A stretch of 64,000 bases of DNA from Chrysochromulina parva. Its lineage: Eukaryota > Haptophyta > Prymnesiales > Chrysochromulinaceae. Below, one piece after another: positions 3,841 through 48,169 of this stretch. Below the pieces are notes generated by a model. The model searched no databases. It was not told where the DNA came from and saw nothing but the letters and a program-made list of their open reading frames with translations. Where the stretch lies: positions 1-64,000 of the forward strand of contig PJAB01000002.1 of assembly GCA_002887195.1 (NCBI GenBank), given 5' to 3'. Positions within the stretch are counted from its first letter, which is position 1; each line of letters opens with the position of its first letter. The position numbers and the translations under genes were made by a program.

Positions 3841-4367
3841 GATGTGTGAGGCGCGTGGGCGCGGGGGATGGCGTGAGTGGATCCACCACGTCGGAGTGGC
3901 CCTGGAATTACAGCTGTAGTCCTGGCGGCACCTCTCCTGAGGGTTTAGCGGCCGGGCATGCCCTCGCTTACGACCCGGCGCTGCGCCGCGGCTGATGGCG
4001 GCTAATGTGCCTTACCGCTTACCCGCGCTCGAACGAAGAGCGTCTACCTCTACGACGGGCTCCGGTGGAAGCTGGAACGCAAATCGGAAACGGAACGCCG
4101 CCGCCGGTATCGGGCTCGCCGCGATCGCGAATTCCGTATAGCACATTGGAACTCTACGCCTCGTACTTCTACCGTACTTGCAATACCGTACACTATGATC
4201 TCGTGTGTTCGCCCTCATCCCAAGCGGCAGCGCGCCGTGCTCTCGACCCTATTCCGGTATTTCGTTTGGATTATAAATATTGCTAACTAGGTAAGCCGAG
4301 AAGCGAGTTGTAACCGCGATGCCGTGCGTTGGCCGTGCGGCTGTAGCGCCCCGCGGTGACTGGTCCG
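3841..4367. other. Convergent intergenic region
   Basis: Lies between the 3' ends of the F-box and phosphoesterase genes. No credible ORF. It contains a locally AT-rich patch near 4255-4285 that could carry 3'-end signals. Confidence 0.5.
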
Positions 4368-5567
4368 CTAAGAAAGATCCATCTGCTCCTGTATCTGTAT
4401 CGAGGAGCTGTCCTCTACCGCTCCTGCTGCCTCTTCGCCCTTGCCTCCCTGCCCCGGCACCGGCGGCTCCGGCGAGATGGCCCTGGAGATTGTATCTCGA
4501 GGTCGAGACGGGATCTCGACATCAAAGACGATCGCCTTTTGGACGGGGCGGTACTGCAGATTGCACGTCGACGCGTTCACGTACGTGGTGGTGCCGTCGG
4601 TGGAGACGCCGTACCCCTCGTGAATGTGCCCAAAGCAGTGGAATTGCGGCCGCACGCGCGTCTGCAGCTCGTCGAGCAGGTCGAGGCAGCCCGCGCGCAC
4701 GCCACTGCTCGTGAGATCGCCGTGGCCCAGCGGCGGACCGTGTGTCAGCACCACGTCGGTGTCCTGTGGGATGAGGCGCCACTTGGCACGGCAGGGCTCG
4801 CCACGCGGCAAGTTGAACGCCCAGGCGCAGAACTCAGGCTGCCACGGCGAACCCCAGATTCGAATACCCTCAACCTCGGTGTGGCTGTCTTGCAGGTACG
4901 TGCAGTTTGGGATGGCCTCGATGAGCGCGCGCACACGGGCGCACGTGCCAGCCACGTCGTCGACCTGGCCGTGCCCGAAGCGCCGTGCTGTTGACGCGTA
5001 CGAGTCGACGTCCAAGCTCAAGTCGTGGTTGCCGGCGATGATGATCTTGCGCGCGTGCGGGAGCTTGGCAAACCACTTGGCGAATGTGGCGATTTCCTCG
5101 GGGCGGCCGACGTTGGAAAAGTCGCCGCAGTGGAGCAGCACGTCGCCATCAGGAATCGTTTCGAGCGACGTAGTCGCGGCCATTGTCTTCGATTCGCACG
5201 AATGCGTGTCGCTGATGCACACGAAGCGGACGGTGCCCTCACGCTTGGGCCGAGCTCCGTCAAAGTCAGAGAGTAGCAGCTTCCTTGCGTCGCCCCGAGC
5301 CGTACGCACAATGTCCCACGCCTTCGTGGGGTCAAGCTTGAATGCGTGTGGCGCAATAGCTTTCAGCGCGCCTCCGCTGACGGTCAGTGACGGCTTTGGC
5401 GGCCGCAGGTGCTGCCACGTTGTAGGATGCGCAAAGTCACACGATCTGTTTGGGCATGCGCCACCGAAACTGCAGCACCGTTCGCCGAATTTGCCACAGG
5501 CGATCCACTGTGGTGACGGCACTTGGCCAGCACCCTGTGGAGGCGGTGCTGCCGTTGGATGATCCAT
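4368..5567 (-). CDS. Metallophosphoesterase (MPPED/UPF0046 type) with N-terminal CCCH-like zinc finger
   Basis: 399 residues. The C-terminal two thirds is a calcineurin-like phosphoesterase with all metal-site motifs in order: SDTH (Asp120, His122), GDF (149), GNHD (179-182), THGPP (275-279) and GHIH (313-316). The layout, with Trp-Gly-Ser-Pro-Trp-Gln-Pro before the THGPP block, matches the MPPED1/MPPED2 family, dinuclear-metal enzymes with cyclic-nucleotide phosphodiesterase activity in animals. Upstream, residues 24-47 hold a Cys/His cluster (C32-x5-C38-x4-C43-x3-H47) like an RNA-binding CCCH finger. A CCCH finger joined to an MPPED enzyme is unusual and suggests a nucleic-acid-linked substrate or localisation. 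Family assignment is firm; the finger is probable. Divergent from the WD40 gene. Confidence 0.88.
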   Translation of the reverse strand: MDHPTAAPPPQGAGQVPSPQWIACGKFGERCCSFGGACPNRSCDFAHPTTWQHLRPPKPSLTVSGGALKAIAPHAFKLDPTKAWDIVRTARGDARKLLLSDFDGARPKREGTVRFVCISDTHSCESKTMAATTSLETIPDGDVLLHCGDFSNVGRPEEIATFAKWFAKLPHARKIIIAGNHDLSLDVDSYASTARRFGHGQVDDVAGTCARVRALIEAIPNCTYLQDSHTEVEGIRIWGSPWQPEFCAWAFNLPRGEPCRAKWRLIPQDTDVVLTHGPPLGHGDLTSSGVRAGCLDLLDELQTRVRPQFHCFGHIHEGYGVSTDGTTTYVNASTCNLQYRPVQKAIVFDVEIPSRPRDTISRAISPEPPVPGQGGKGEEAAGAVEDSSSIQIQEQMDLS

Positions 5568-27875: not shown

Positions 27876-30800
27876 CTAGCGCCGAATCTTGTACATGCCC
27901 GCGCTCAGCTCGAGCTTGCCGTCCTCGACGAGGCGCTGAAGGAAGCGTTGCAGCTCGGCCTCGGAGCGATCATACCCGCGGTCGCCGCCCGAGGCGGGCA
28001 CGAACATGCGCAGCATGTTATTTATGCGCGCCAACGGCAGCTCCGTCAGGTTGGTGAGCATGCCGATGACGTACTGCTCGTACACACGCATCTCCGCATC
28101 GAGCTGTGCCTCGGCCGCGCCGCCGCCGGCGCCCTCCTCCTCGTCGTCCTCGCCGCCCGGCCGCCCCTCGCCACCCTTGCCAAGGTGCGTCGGCGCCTCA
28201 TAGTTGACGTCGCCGTCGGCGGTGCGCCCCTTTTCGAGGATGAAACCACGGTTGATCCAGAGAGCCAGCCGCTTCTTAAGCGTCTGAGCGTCCACCTTGA
28301 GCTTGGCGCTGAGCGTACGCAGCGACCATTGGGGCTGCGTGCCGAAGGCATCGAGGATCGTGGCATGCAACGGCGAGCAGCGCACGTTCTTCACGGTACG
28401 GTCGGCAAAGGTCACGTCGAGCGTCACCATGCCCAGGGCAGGCTTCCAGACGAGCTTGCGAGGGGCCTTGATGTGCATGTACCTGATGAGGGGCGCCATC
28501 AGAGGGGATCAGGGACGCACTCGGGGGCCATTCGGGGAGGCAAGCAGGGGCCTGATGAGGGGCGCCATCAGAGGGGGTCAAGGACGTAATCAGGGGCCCT
28601 CGGGGAGGCAATCACGGTCCGTGAGCGTACTGCTTCTCGTAGCGCGCCATCTCGCTCACGAGCGCCGCGGGCAGCTCAAACGTCTCATTGGCGAGCGCGG
28701 GCCAGCACAGGCGCGACACGATCGTCGCATCGAGGACGCGAGCCGAGCCGTCGTCAAAGTGCTGCTGGATCGCGCGCGTGTTGCGCTTGGACTCGGCGAT
28801 GTCCTTGAGCATCACCTCGCATTGCGATAGGGCGGTCTCGCCGAAGCGCTTCTTGAGCAGCTCGAGGTTGCGCACCTGTGGATGAGGGAGGCGACATGGG
28901 AGGCACTCTTCGGCAACCCTTGGCAATCGGTGAGCGTCGGGAAGCCATCCGTGGCATGCGCACCTGTGGATGAGGGAGGCAATCAGTGGCAATCAGTGGC
29001 AATCAGTGGCAATCAGAAGCGCTTCTTGAGCGTCGGGAAGCCATCCGTGGCATGCGCACCTCGCGGTCCGTGTCGTAGTCCGAGGCGGTGAGCAGCTTGT
29101 CCGCGAGCATATTGCGGAACTCATTGACGAAGAGCGCGCGGGAGCCATAGATGTTGACGAGTCGCGAGAGCACATCGGCGTTGCGCCGGGCACTCGGGCG
29201 AGACGGGTCTGCCTGGATAGGATCGGGCTGCCACGCAAGCATCGTGGCTTCGTCCGCCTTGGCCTCCTCGGCATCGGCCGCGTCGTACAGGCTGCCGTCC
29301 GCGCCGCCATCGTCCGTGAGGAGCTCGGCTTCGCTTCCCGTATTCTCAAGCAGCTCTGAAGTCTCCGGGTCCGTGAGGGAGGTGACGATCTGCCGAATCG
29401 TATCAGGGCGCGCCTTGAGGTACGCACGCACGCGCTCGGAGACGGCCTCGAGCTTGACGCCACTCGGGTCAAGGCAACTGAGCGCCTTGATCGCGGACAC
29501 GTACCTGTGGGGACGCGGGGCGCCGTGGTGAGCACGTGCATGCACGGCACGCGTGCAGGCTCCGGCGTGGGTCGTGGACACGTACACTTGGATGATGTTG
29601 GCCGTGTCGACGCCTGGAAGGAGCAGTCGCGCCTCGATTGCCGCGGAGAGGGCCCTCACCTGTGGGGAAGAGGGCGCGCCGTGGTGAGCACATGCATGCA
29701 GTCGCGCCTCGATTGCCGCGGAGAGGGCCCTCACCGCGTCCGAGTGCTGCTGGGTGTGGCTCAGGCACTCCCTCAGGTCGAGGATCGCGGGCATCGAGTC
29801 GGGGAAGTCGACGATCAGATCGAAGAGCTCTCCGATGCGCAGCGAGCCGAGCGCCTGTCGAAGGAAGAACTACAGCCGCGAGCCACGCAAGGGTGTGAAC
29901 ACGCCAGAGTATGAACAGTGACCGCCCGCAGCAATCAGGGGCAATCACGCAAGGGTGTGAACACGCCAGAGTGTGAACAGTGACCGTCCGCAGCAATCAG
30001 GGGCAATCACGGGTCTTCCGAGGGGGCATCAAAGGGACCATCCGACGCAACCCGACGCACTCCGACGCAACTCGACGCACTCCGACGCAACTCGACGCAC
30101 TCGTCCGCGCACCTGGAGCCGCGCGAGCCAACGGCTCATCTCGGGCGTCTCTGGCGCCATCGGCGGCGCGTTGGGCATGAGCACCGCGCGCAGCCAACGC
30201 GCGACGCTTGAGTGGACCCAACTGAGGATGTGCTGCAGGTACGGCGTGTCGAAGCGCTTGGCGCACGTGCGCAGCAGCGCCGCGTGCAGCCGCCCGTGGA
30301 GCACAGTCGATAGCGTAGGCTCCACCAACGGGAGCCAGCGAAGTTGGTGCAGCTGGGCGGAGCACGCGCGCAGCGCCTCGGCGGCGGCGGCGGCGTCGAC
30401 GCCCATGTTCTCGTCCTCGTCCTCGTCCTCGCCCTCAGCGCGCTCGTCGGCGTCCCACGCAACCACCTCCTCTTCGCCCTCCTCCTCGCCCTCCTCCTCG
30501 TCGCCATGCGGAGCGCTACGCTGAGCGCCCCCCACAGCGCTCGCGGGCGGAGGGGGCTCTCGCATGTCGATCACCGAGCGGTGCCAGCAGACCGTCAGCC
30601 ACCAGGATAAGGCAGCTTGCGTGGGCGCGCGAGAGAGCACGAGCGCGTGCAGCGTCTCGAGCACCTCGTTGAACATAATCTTCCTCGGCGGAACGGCACC
30701 GACGGCGACGCGGGCGGGAGGGGCGCCGCCGGGCGCCATGCCGGGCGCCATGGACCGCCAACCGTACTCCTCGAGCACCGAGACCATCGTGAGCTGCGCG

Positions 30801-31240
30801 CCCACGTACGCGGAGAGCTCGTGCGTGGCGGCGAAGAAGGCGGCCTGGATGCGCCGCTGCACAGCGGCGGAGCTGCGCACACCCGGCGCCACAGCCGGCA
30901 GCTCGCGGTAGTGCCGCCAGAAGCGAGGCACAGCGTGGTTGAACAGCCGCTCGCGCACGCCCTCCATGAACCACGCCTTGAGCAGCCCGTACATGTTGCG
31001 ATCGACGACCAGGTCGAGGTGCGCGCGCATCGCAGGCTCCTCGGCGCAGCGCCGCACGAACGCGGGTGATGCCGTCGGGCTGGCCATAATCTCCTGCTGC
31101 GACTGCACGATCGACCGCACGATCACGGTCCAGGAGGCGGTGGTCTCGATCAGCTCGGGCGTCCACTGCTCCGGGTGCTCGCGCTGGTGCTTCTCGGCGT
31201 CGCCCCAGGGCTGGGACGGGTTGAAGACGGCAAGAGGCAT
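27876..31240 (-). CDS. APC2: Anaphase-promoting complex subunit 2 (cullin-like), six exons
   Basis: APC2 is the cullin scaffold that binds the RING subunit Apc11 in the APC/C ubiquitin ligase. Exons: 30113-31240, 29735-29854, 29586-29659, 29060-29504, 28616-28875, 27876-28482; they sum to 2634 bp, exactly 878 codons. Family blocks: LRIGELFDLIVDFPDSMPAI (exon 2), IEARLLLPGVDTANII, LDPSGVKLEAVSERVRAYL, IRQIVTSLTD, then the cullin core NIYGSRALFVNEFRNMLADK and LELLKKRFGE, and the winged-helix end IGMLTNLTELPLARINNMLR ... LVEDGKLELSAGMYKIRR, which binds Apc11/E2. An acidic insertion lies near residue 260. All five introns contain internal duplications (see findings). Its ATG is 149 bp from that of the divergent coiled-coil gene. 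Confidence 0.95.
28483..28615 (-). repeat. APC2 intron 5: two tandem units ending in CTCATCAG
   Basis: 133-bp intron (CC|GTGATTGCC ... CTCATCAG|GTACATG). It splits into 64-bp and 69-bp related halves, each containing TTGCCTCCCCGA and ending CTGATGGCGCCCCTCATCAG, a usable acceptor. Confidence 0.85.
28876..29059 (-). repeat. APC2 intron 4: two tandem intron-like units
   Basis: 184 bp made of units of 96 bp (28964-29059) and 88 bp (28876-28963). Both start GTGCGCATGCCACGGATGGC and end CCTCCCTCATCCACAG, and exon 5 itself starts GTGCGC. The first unit also carries GCTCAAGAAGCGCTTC, a 16-bp copy from within exon 5, and four repeats of CTGATTGCCA. Confidence 0.9.
29505..29585 (-). repeat. APC2 intron 3: related core and exon-start duplication
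   Basis: 81-bp intron (CAAGT|GTACGTGTCC ... CCCCACAG|GTACGTGTCC). Intron and exon 4 share their first 10 bases exactly and 14 of 16. The core GCATGCACGTGCTCACCACG matches that of intron 2 (25 of 27 over the aligned core). Confidence 0.9.
29660..29734 (-). repeat. APC2 intron 2: first 37 bp duplicate the downstream exon start
   Basis: 75-bp intron (GCG|GTGAGG ... CCCCACAG|GTGAGG). Its first 37 bases are identical to the first 37 bases of exon 3. The remaining 38 bases are a core beginning ATGCATGTGCTCACCACGGC and ending CCCCACAG. Confidence 0.9.
29855..30112 (-). repeat. APC2 intron 1, built of 20-bp and 62-bp tandem repeats
   Basis: 258-bp intron (CAG|GTGCGC ... CGACAG|GCGC). Its 5' part has three copies of a unit near GAGTGCGTCGAGTTGCGTCG. 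Its 3' part has two 62-bp copies beginning GTGATTGCCCCTGATTGCTG, differing at two positions. Confidence 0.85.
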
Positions 31241-46072: not shown

Positions 46073-48169
46073 ATGCCGGCGGAGCAGTCCGATACGCTCG
46101 CTCAGGTCGTGGCCAAGGGTGGCGACCTCGCCGCGCTGCGAGCGCTCTCCAAGTCCGAGCTGCAGCAAGCGCTCAAAGAATTGGGATACGCCAAGCTCGG
46201 GGAACGCGTGCGCCTGACGGCAGCCATTGCAGCAGCTGAGGTGCCTGCAGCATGGTCACCAGAGCCTCCGGCTGACGAGGAGGCATGCGACCGCACGATG
46301 ATCGTGCATGGGGCAGTGCAGGACATTTTTGACGACGGTGGCCTACTGAAGACGACGCTGCGTAAGGGCGACGCATCCACCAGCATGCCGCCGCTGTTCA
46401 GCAAGGTCAAGGTGCGATACATCGCGTCGCTGCTGCCAGAATGCCGCAGCTTCGAGGCGGCGGTGCGCGAGTTCGTGCTGGGCGAGCACGAGGTGCCAAA
46501 GGGCCTCGAAAAGTGCGTCGGAACAATGCGCCGCGGCGAGACGTGCGAGCTCATCTGCAGGGCCGAGTATGCCTACGGCGCCGTCGGTCGGCCTCCGGAT
46601 GTGCCGCCGGGCACGTCGATCCGTTACGAGGTGGAGCTGATCTCGATGGTGCTGCCCAAGAAGGATCGGTCCGAGTACACCGCCGCCGAAAAGATCGCGC
46701 TCGCGCAGGCGCTCAAGGCCAAGGGCACGCGCGAGTTTGGCTCTGGCCTGTGGCTCGAGGCCCAAGTGAGCTATCACGAGGCGAGTAGGCTGCTGCTGAC
46801 AGAGTACGAGGAGCTCGTGGCGGAGCCGGGAGCCGAGGCGGCGAGCCGGCAGTTGCTCGTCGCGTGCCTGCTCAACATCGCCCAGTGCGCGCTCAAGCGC
46901 GACGAGTGGTCGGCGGCTGAGCGGGCGTGCACAGAGACGCTCGAACGACTGACCGACCCGCTCGGACTCGAAAAGGAGAGCCACATCAAAGCGCTGTACC
47001 GGCGCGCCAAGGCGCGCACGGGCCGCTCCGAGTTCAGCGACGCGCGCGCGGACCTAAAGGCAGTGCTATCGCTGCAGCCGAGCTCGCGCGAGGCGCGCGA
47101 GCTGTGGGAAAGTCTCAAGGACAGGGAGCAGAGTGCGAGCAGGAGCGAGGGGAAGGTCTACGGTCTCATGACGAGCAAGCTGCTGTACCGCGAGTACAAT
47201 GTGGGGCGCCGGCGGCTCTCGACCTACCCGCGTGCGTTCTTCGAGCTGAGCATCGACGGAGTGCGCATGCCGCGTATCGTCTTTGAGCTCTTTGTAGACC
47301 GTGCGCCCAAGACGTGCGAAAACTTCCGATGCCTGTGCACAGGCGAGCGCGGCGTCTCCACGAGGGGCACGCGGCTGCACTACAAGGGGACGAAGTTCCA
47401 CCGCGCGGTGCCGACGGACGACCTGCCGCCCGAGTACATCAACGAGAGTGCGGACGGCACCGGACGCAACTTCGAGATTTGGAAGGGCTTTCTGGTGCAA
47501 GGAGGCGATATCAGCCATGGCGACGGCTCAGGCGGCGAGAGTATCTGGGGGGATCCGTTCGAGGACGAGCTGCCGCTCGACTACGTGTGCCACAGCGGCC
47601 CTGGGCTGCTCTCGATGGCCGGGAGCTTACCGATGCGCGACAAGGCCTCCGAGGAGATGATGCACGTGCCCCACCGCAACACGTCGCAATTCTTCATCAC
47701 GACCAATGCTAAGAATGCAGCGCAGGGCGGCAGTGCGATCCGTCATTTTGATGGGCACCACGTGTGCTTTGGGCGCGTCGTCGAGGGCATGTCGACAGTC
47801 AACCAGATCCACAAATGCCTCGTCGACCCGACCGCGTTCCATGCGATCGATGAGCGCCACTCGGTCGAGATAGTCGACTGCGGCCATTTGAAGTCCAAAG
47901 AGGACGCCGAGCTTGAGCGAGATGAGGCCGAGATCCAAAAGCTCCACCCTGCCTCCAGGATCCTCGACAAGAAGGAGGCTGACGAAGACGAGGCCGTCGA
48001 GGTCATCACGCGCGCGACGTGGGCGGTGCTTGGCGCGGGCGACACCGACCGAGCCGCTCCGGCCGCTCAACCGCCAGCCCCGCCGCCCAAGCTGGAGCTG
48101 CCCAAGCCCACGCCCAAAGATGACGGCGCCATCACCTCGGCCGAGATCGATGAAGATGCGGATGACTGA
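46073..48169 (+). CDS. Dual immunophilin: FKBP-TPR-cyclophilin fusion (FCBP type)
   Basis: 698 residues, no intron. A short SAM-like unit is at 20-53 (ALSKSELQQALKELGYAKLG). FKBP domain 105-192: VKVRYIAS, FVLGEHEVPKGLEKCVGTMR, EYAYGAVGRPPDVPPGTSIR; the ligand-site Trp (FKBP12 Trp59) is Leu145 here. TPR region about 200-350 (three motifs, Hsp90-type clamp possible). Cyclophilin 385-600: catalytic Arg444 (KFHR), Gln477 (VQGGD) and SQFFIT present, but cyclosporin-binding Trp121 is His558. Two insertions interrupt the cyclophilin, after FHRAVP and after LLSMAG. The acidic tail ends DEDADD. FKBP-TPR-cyclophilin order is known from Toxoplasma and relatives (FCBP). Cyclophilin isomerase activity is likely; the FKBP half may be inactive or drug-insensitive. 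Confidence 0.93.
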   Translation: MPAEQSDTLAQVVAKGGDLAALRALSKSELQQALKELGYAKLGERVRLTAAIAAAEVPAAWSPEPPADEEACDRTMIVHGAVQDIFDDGGLLKTTLRKGDASTSMPPLFSKVKVRYIASLLPECRSFEAAVREFVLGEHEVPKGLEKCVGTMRRGETCELICRAEYAYGAVGRPPDVPPGTSIRYEVELISMVLPKKDRSEYTAAEKIALAQALKAKGTREFGSGLWLEAQVSYHEASRLLLTEYEELVAEPGAEAASRQLLVACLLNIAQCALKRDEWSAAERACTETLERLTDPLGLEKESHIKALYRRAKARTGRSEFSDARADLKAVLSLQPSSREARELWESLKDREQSASRSEGKVYGLMTSKLLYREYNVGRRRLSTYPRAFFELSIDGVRMPRIVFELFVDRAPKTCENFRCLCTGERGVSTRGTRLHYKGTKFHRAVPTDDLPPEYINESADGTGRNFEIWKGFLVQGGDISHGDGSGGESIWGDPFEDELPLDYVCHSGPGLLSMAGSLPMRDKASEEMMHVPHRNTSQFFITTNAKNAAQGGSAIRHFDGHHVCFGRVVEGMSTVNQIHKCLVDPTAFHAIDERHSVEIVDCGHLKSKEDAELERDEAEIQKLHPASRILDKKEADEDEAVEVITRATWAVLGAGDTDRAAPAAQPPAPPPKLELPKPTPKDDGAITSAEIDEDADD

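Follow-up and report, generated by a model that had tools for sequence, protein, structure and literature searches.

Introns 2 and 3 of APC2 in Chrysochromulina parva belong to an introner-like family with long, variable target duplications and unspliced exonic copies

The window, a stretch of 64,000 nucleotides from Chrysochromulina parva (contig PJAB01000002.1), carries on its minus strand the gene for APC2, subunit 2 of the anaphase-promoting complex (27876..31240), with exons at 31240-30113, 29854-29735, 29659-29586, 29504-29060, 28875-28631 (3' end inferred) and 28482-27876. The junctions of exons 2-4 were tested by alignment to human APC2, and the remaining ones were placed by reading frame together with what we take to be a likeness to APC2. 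All features of introns 2 and 3 described here lie on the same strand. Intron 2 (75 bp, 29660..29734) consists of a copy of the start of exon 3, a module and an acceptor: its first 37 bp (29698..29734) repeat the exonic copy at the start of exon 3 (29623..29659) at 37 of 37 positions and are followed, with an overlap of 2 nt, by a module of 24 bp (GCATGCATGTGCTCACCACGGCGC, 29676..29699) and by a pyrimidine tract with the 3' splice site (GCCCTCTTCCCCACAG, 29660..29675). The predicted 5' splice site, GTGAGG, is provided by the intronic duplicate. Intron 3 (81 bp, 29505..29585) is composed of a decayed copy of the start of exon 4 (29570..29585, an older duplication of 29489..29504 with 14 of 16 bases identical), filler sequence, a 24-bp module (GCATGCACGTGCTCACCACGGCGC, 29520..29543) and a tract with the 3' splice site (CCCGCGTCCCCACAG, 29505..29519), and its predicted 5' splice site, GTACGT, likewise lies in the intronic duplicate. 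The initial annotation had reported both exon copies and a core common to the two introns, and each of these observations was reproduced: 29734..29698 matches 29659..29623 without a mismatch, the first 10 bases of the exon 4 copy are identical, and both introns contain GCATGCAYGTGCTCACCACGGCGC, a pyrimidine tract and CCCCACAG after a locus-specific part. The lengths of both introns are divisible by three and both are stop-free, an open reading frame (29003-29794) reading through the two; we infer that they are spliced.

Without introns 2 and 3, the protein encoded by exons 2-4 aligned to human APC2 (PDB) over residues 4 to 112 (E 4.4e-31), with no gap across either the intron 2 or the intron 3 junction, and thus the two introns interrupt a conserved domain. 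A protein search for APC2 relatives yielded 23 matches, of which 21 were aligned; these are predicted proteins, so presence and absence were read at the protein level. Both introns are present, as read-through peptides, in P0026 (25-kb contig) and P0027 (19 kb), which differ from the window sequence at residues near intron 2. P0029 contains intron 3 and lacks intron 2; P0030 also lacks intron 2 and contains intron 3 in an altered form, and P0028 (2.2 kb) has neither intron and reads on into intron 4. Both introns are absent from the more distant relatives covering the sites, so that the site of intron 2 is empty in P0028, P0029, P0030 and these distant proteins. A partly spliced transcript could account for the absences in P0028 and P0029 and hardly for those in P0030, whose sequence is genomic because its contig is 37 kb long. 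Since the human alignment is free of gaps and relatives lack one or both segments, the segments are insertions. As the cause of the absences, loss rather than gain is improbable, though possible in principle, given that the introns are missing from the distant relatives too and that the duplication can still be read. The comparison of close relatives proposed in the initial annotation thus uncovered presence (P0026, P0027) and absence (P0029, P0030) of intron 2. On these protein-level data intron 2, with its perfect repeat, is polymorphic, and intron 3, with its decayed repeat, is more widespread in the relatives compared. The suggestion, made from its perfect repeat, that intron 2 was gained very recently has to be relaxed inasmuch as the intron is not private to the window, being also found in P0026 and P0027. 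In P0030 an extra insertion lies before intron 3, its translation repeating NIIQVYVS around LMATDCHRLPLIA; this is the pattern expected from a unit of the CTGATTGCC type that had duplicated about 24 bp.

Searches of the whole assembly (45 Mb, 2,199 contigs), a check proposed in the initial annotation and here accompanied by control sequences, placed the core in a large family with flanking direct repeats at unrelated positions; the refuting outcome named there, a core confined to APC2 with the introns present in distant relatives, was looked for and was not what we found. The module consensus of about 24 bp reads GCATGCA[A/T/C]GTGCTCACCACGGCGC, followed in intron-forming copies by a pyrimidine tract and AG. 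Genome-wide, the 16-mer GTGCTCACCACGGCGC occurs in 689 exact copies (control 1), 1,872 copies at up to one mismatch (control 7) and 12,162 copies at up to three mismatches (control 1,890), and a 25-mer including the GCATGC start in 980 copies at up to one mismatch (control 0). Exact module copies are followed by CCCCACAG in 357 cases, with GT coming next in 309 of these. Copies of the main class share sequence only in their 3' part, from about GCCTTGCATGC on, and are locus-specific in their 5' part, while a minority shares a longer 5' part (102 genome-wide matches for the long start GTACGTTGATTGCC...GCATGCA).

The proposal that the 24-mer is specially conserved relative to the tract was dropped, because copies at up to three mismatches outnumber the control by about 10,000. 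Copying of the tract from its neighbourhood was likewise rejected (longest shared word 5.68 for a copy's own flanks versus 5.58 for those of others, 79 copies). None of five segments exceeded its shuffles in RNA structure, and Rfam at the gathering threshold gave no match within the window. A viral carrier was also discarded: the 16-mer occurs in 45 IMG/VR stretches, only four of which match the 24-mer within four mismatches, and a longer probe had no IMG/VR match. One IMG/VR contig of 4,554 bp (L126) contains at 4490-4554 an exact A-variant 24-mer, a tract and CACAG/GTGAG at the contig end; this copy is probably an assembly chimera or host DNA, the rest of the contig being phage-like by eye. 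Four tandem units of 76-80 bp each, all ending in CCCCACAG directly before GT, are found in L032 (C1719:1-785).

The target duplication was analysed in 100 stretches including the window (330,677 bases), in which 123 distinct copies were found at up to four mismatches, 121 of them with enough flank. The stretches derive from BLAST matches of the module, 20 stretches of 10 kb round exact 16-mers, and 20 places without and 20 with CCCCACAG behind the module; as the sample was picked by module similarity, proportions within it are not those of the genome. A local direct repeat between upstream and downstream flank reached a score of at least 13 in 82 of 121 copies versus 4 of 121 swapped pairs, and at least 20 in 59 copies versus none, the module sitting at the junction between the two repeat copies. 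With close arrays set aside there are 60 strong copies; an ungapped repeat of at least 94% identity flanks 39 of them and is perfect in 14. In these 39 clean cases the repeat has a median length of 29 bp and ranges from 17 to 49 bp, plus one of 71 bp that is a tandem unit in an array. Neither the 3-9 bp duplications typical of introners nor the fixed length typical of DNA transposons and MITEs was thus observed. The start of the downstream exon was copied (score at least 10) in 40 of 56 acceptor-bearing core copies and in 0 of 56 when exons were swapped, which puts repeats of this kind and register beyond chance. In the intron class the repeat begins at (A)GGT: a GT that belonged to the target and was duplicated serves as 5' splice site, and the module brings the 3' one.

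Grouped by their edges, the 121 copies comprise 42 at AG/GT, 6 with AG and another dinucleotide, 17 in arrays, 2 mirror-image copies, 15 with a repeat and no AG at the edge, and 39 with no repeat above threshold, 28 of which still have a pyrimidine tract and AG/GT. A generic scan for direct repeats with an AG/GT edge, the tract being ignored, was swamped by tandem repeats (21 GT/AG of 369 pairs; eight other motif pairs gave 1 to 59) and was replaced by an anchored test. With the module disregarded, this test detected a repeat at 6 of 83 AG/GT sites with a pyrimidine tract, five of the six lying in tandem units, versus 15 of 1,585 other-dinucleotide sites; at sites with the first module a repeat was detected in 11 of 12.

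Copies with a clear AG/GT register (n=45) are 62-98 bp long and fall into modulo three classes 0, 1 and 2 in 11, 15 and 19 cases. Using a codon model trained on five long ORFs of the window, we found the flanking frames to be continuous after removal of the unit in 39 of the 45, and the sense strand to win in 39 of 45. Where the length is not a multiple of three (n=34), the frame is continuous in 28 copies when the unit is removed, in 2 when it is kept, and in neither state in 4. The AG/GT class can accordingly be read as putative introns whose removal would restore the reading frame. Family membership, locus-specific repeats, the frame after removal and presence/absence among relatives agree in favour of one of the readings of the initial annotation, intron gain by an introner-like insertion with target duplication. 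Intron 2 is probably a young and intron 3 an older product of the same insertion process, and the data as a whole support ongoing intron gain in C. parva, as judged from sequence.

Copies of the module that are not introns were also found. Re-reading by eye of the 15 copies with a repeat and no AG at the edge identified seven as AG-ended introns (L015, L026, L029, L059, L069, L074+294, L089); the repeat of L069 was judged spurious, and in the other six the register had been missed by the script. The remaining eight and L070, first classed as AG/AG, constitute nine acceptor-less copies. Eight of them, against three expected, carry inserts whose length is a multiple of three, and only L039 (minus 746) departs from this, a result to be read with the fact that GC-rich DNA makes open frames common by chance. 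Five copies with AG and no GT have lengths that are, modulo three, 1 (L039+500), 0 (L074+609), 2 (L075), 1 (L084) and 0 (L097), so that together 10 of 14 are divisible by three. Acceptor-less copies terminate either at GGCGCC or within the tract, and so the AG found at the end of the intron class seems to have been selected for, not supplied by an RNA end. In L055, L061 and L066+4892 the module is antisense to the longest open frame. A recognised protein stands behind this frame in L061 (5,175 nt, EF-hand and SAM domains) and in L066, and none was found by domain search in L055 (2,601 nt). A 1,698 nt frame in L054 gave a weak Arm match, and L057, L070 and L079 contain only frames below 750 nt, partly as the sampled stretches are short.

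The frame in L066 (4162-5676, minus, 1,515 nt) matches MBD4 structures from just behind the insertion, and this gene for an MBD4-like glycosylase contains two module insertions in an exon, one sense and one antisense. At the sense site, relatives have one unit (P0049, P0051, P0052, P0053), two units (P0050) or no unit with a single copy of the target (P0054); the site is also empty in the distant P0056, P0055 not being comparable there. At the antisense site, two units are present in C. parva and P0049 and one in P0050, P0051, P0052 and P0054, the site being empty in P0053, P0055 and the distant P0056. With relatives carrying zero, one or two units, the unit therefore enters exons both ways, multiplies in tandem and varies. 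The Rickettsia palindromic elements are likewise small mobile units kept in frame within protein genes, and differ from the present unit in being bacterial, longer, palindromic and not introns. In mirror-image copies (L045 ~800-900, L057 ~4050-4130, L077 ~260-340) the duplicated segment is the upstream exon's end, which recurs behind the module; the unit brings GTACGTTGA as 5' splice site, and the duplicate provides the 3' splice site.

A second module, TGATTGCCTCCCTCATCAGGT, is unrelated to the first and has 2,346 matches in the genome at up to two mismatches (control 0). In 19 sampled sites, a repeat scoring at least 13 was found in 9, versus 1 with swapped partners, and 6 of these repeats start with the exon's first base. 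By eye, 4 of the 9 (L015, L056, L061, L066) are clear of other units or repetitive sequence, the best repeat being 25/25 in L066; L053 (twice), L046 and the window site adjoin another unit, and L065 is a purine-rich repeat. There are thus signs, on thinner evidence than for the first module, that the second shares its build of module and target duplication. Repeated units were also seen in the other APC2 introns. Intron 4 (28876-29059) contains two tandem units with 33 identical bases in common (GTGCGCATGCC...), CTGATTGCC-like repeats and CCTCATCCACAG ends, and one stretch is similar to the beginning of exon 5 (GCTCAAGAAGCGCTTC); the intron appears related to the second family and has the look of a doubled insertion. 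Intron 5 (28483-28630, 5' end inferred) starts with GTACGCTCAC, compared with GTACATGCAC in the exon, and holds two units ending in CCCCTCATCAG, which makes it a candidate for another member of the second family. Intron 1 (29855-30112) has one block in two copies (CTGATTGCTGCGG..GGTCACTGTTCA..CTCTGGCGTGTTCACACCCTTGCGTG) as well as GTGCGTCGAGTTGCGTCGGA-like repeats, in which no connection to the module was seen.

The explanation that we consider probable is that the module of about 24 bp is copied into genes at the DNA level, in either orientation and with a long target duplication, splicing being secondary; its standing overlaps with that of template switching, target-primed reverse transcription and MITE insertion, any of which could supply the copying step. 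Cuts or nicks in the two strands of the target would lie 20-50 nt from each other, fill-in of the staggered target would generate the long and variable duplication, and the module would be joined with the help of short microhomology. CTCAC in the module may act as the branch region, and unspliceable insertions would persist only when they add whole codons. The spliceosome would serve as a filter after insertion and not as the mover of the module, since antisense and unspliced copies show the same kind of repeats. At 15 5' junctions where the repeat reaches the module, at least two module bases are shared in 7, versus 14.9% (GC, random exon places), which suggests microhomology on this number of junctions. 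We identified no coding partner or enzyme for the module.

A first alternative, which we rate as a real yet minority possibility, is that the units are born in repair and involve no dedicated element: a polymerase would leave the exon at a microhomology (often AG/GT), copy part of an existing intron and return about 20-50 bp behind its start, leaving a tandem duplication with a templated insert, by template switching of the MMBIR or Pol-theta-like kind, and each new intron would become a new donor, so that families grow. The shared bases in 7 of 15 5' junctions are compatible with such an origin, as are the existence of two unlike modules of this architecture (the second more weakly), the acceptor-less copies L061 and L079, whose repeat begins at GGCGCC, the module's own end, the private features common to neighbouring copies (L036, L074, L078) and the mirror-image copies L045, L057 and L077, in which it is the end of the upstream exon that is repeated and the 3' splice site that is borrowed. 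Against it, 30 of 39 young copies have an insert beginning between -2 and +13 nt from GCATGC, even where intron length sets no limit; such a consistent start looks like a unit with ends rather than random intron pieces, an argument made weak by a sample that was chosen by the module.

Target-primed reverse transcription is unlikely. A LINE-type reverse transcriptase would prime at a nick before GT and copy the 3' end of an intron RNA or a lariat tail, resulting in exact 3' ends, ragged 5' ends and variable duplications, the last being typical of target-primed insertion. Intron-forming copies do end exactly at AG with a ragged 5' end, and the genome contains five RVT_1 places above cut-off (frames of 758 to 2,709 aa). 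However, L055, L061, L066, L070 and L079 end at GGCGC(C) or inside the tract and not at CACAG, so that the 3' end, which would be constant in a LINE or SINE, is constant in introns and variable in acceptor-less copies. Lower still we place a non-autonomous DNA transposon (MITE) like the introners of Micromonas or Aureococcus: the insert is flanked by repeats and occurs in both orientations, but direct reading of the module and of the whole insert by eye revealed no terminal inverted repeats, the ends GCATGCA...CCCCACAG or GGCGCC do not pair, and the duplication varies from 17 to 49 bp instead of being fixed at a few bases. Insertion of intron RNA into mRNA by reverse splicing, with subsequent reverse transcription and gene conversion, would fit the sense orientation and proto-splice context of the intron class and deserves next to no credence, since under this model there should be neither a target duplication nor copies that are antisense or left unspliced in exons, and all of these are present. 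Equally little speaks for plain tandem duplication of an AGGT-bearing exon piece, the other origin offered in the initial annotation: repeats of the intron class do start at (A)GGT, but every unit also carries a family module that is not in the target and is common to thousands of sites, which contradicts this origin for the present family.

Returning to the copying of a short module at the DNA level, a broader form of this explanation, which we hold to be rather doubtful, would be a general ongoing process in which breaks with strands 20-50 nt apart receive short fixed modules, of two or more unrelated kinds and in either orientation, the outcome as intron, in-frame peptide or tandem array being set only by the spliceosome and by selection. 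If true, the module would be an oligonucleotide-like template (RNA or single-stranded DNA) for a polymerase filling staggered breaks and no classical transposon.

Introners are known from aquatic protists as many similar introns at unrelated sites, with a target duplication and a splice site derived from the duplicate (Gozashti et al. 2022, PNAS, PMC9860276); in the portion of that article considered here, a Symbiodinium family takes its 5' splice site from the duplication, and a family from a Chrysochromulina MAG carries its 5' splice site and borrows the 3' one. The present family resembles them in its repeated introns, in duplicating the target and in using a splice site from the duplicate. 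It differs in that their duplications measure a few bp (4 or 8 bp in the examples, 3-9 bp for earlier families), often with terminal inverted repeats, compared with 17-49 bp, variable and with no such repeats seen here. Furthermore, their search criterion is similarity reaching near both splice sites, whereas only the 3' part is shared here. The results, discussion and TSD/TIR methods of PMC9860276 yielded no mention of the same unit in exons in both orientations. Introner elements of Amoebophrya, also a marine protist, are repeated introns with direct repeats at their boundaries, and according to the part of the report that we draw on they differ in direct repeats of 3-5 nt, inverted repeats of 8-20 nt and largely non-canonical splice sites (PMC7789003). 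Rogers and Bendich (2025, PMC11782384) reported direct repeats of 4-30 bp, averaging 11.4, at or close to the borders of all 213 introns that they examined and read them as insertion traces; their survey spans intron classes and, in its abstract, names no module, exonic copies or empty alleles, while the repeats described here reach 49 bp and are tied to one family. Tandem genomic duplication of AGGT exons as a route to new introns (PMC3443670) is alike in that a repeat from (A)GGT gives the splice site, and differs by the lack of an inserted family module. For Daphnia introns gained in double-strand break repair, in which an insert lies between short direct repeats left by a staggered break, the passages of the same review that we used describe no family module, whereas thousands of copies of one module are present here. 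In the passages of PMC9860276, PMC7789003, PMC3443670 and PMC12768974 that were covered, and in the abstract of PMC11782384, neither a single module with duplications that vary and reach 49 bp nor exonic copies of one unit in both orientations are described, and the present genome may be among the marine assemblies surveyed in PMC9860276. We regard the family as a variant of introners. What goes beyond the initial annotation are the length and variability of the duplications, well above the few bases usual in introners, signs of a like build in a second module, and unspliced exonic copies in both orientations.

The origin of new introns is a long-open question, in which age has mostly obscured the first step. 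In the present case close relatives show the same insertions in full, empty, half-decayed and multiplied form, with the duplication still readable, and the unspliced copies show insertion before splicing selects, which separates the insertion step from splicing. Moreover, an introner-like unit alters proteins directly through in-frame exonic peptides, and the mode of landing appears to decide whether a new intron or a short extra stretch of protein results. The build of the family suggests that surveys requiring similarity at both intron ends could miss families of this kind.

Two further genes of the window were noted. A single frame at 46073-48166 encodes FKBP and cyclophilin domains with a sub-threshold TPR match, corresponding to a dual immunophilin. 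A predicted methyltransferase at 11039-12640 matches metagenome proteins at 96 and 93% identity and its two named haptophyte matches, from Coccolithus braarudii and Prymnesium parvum, at 45%.
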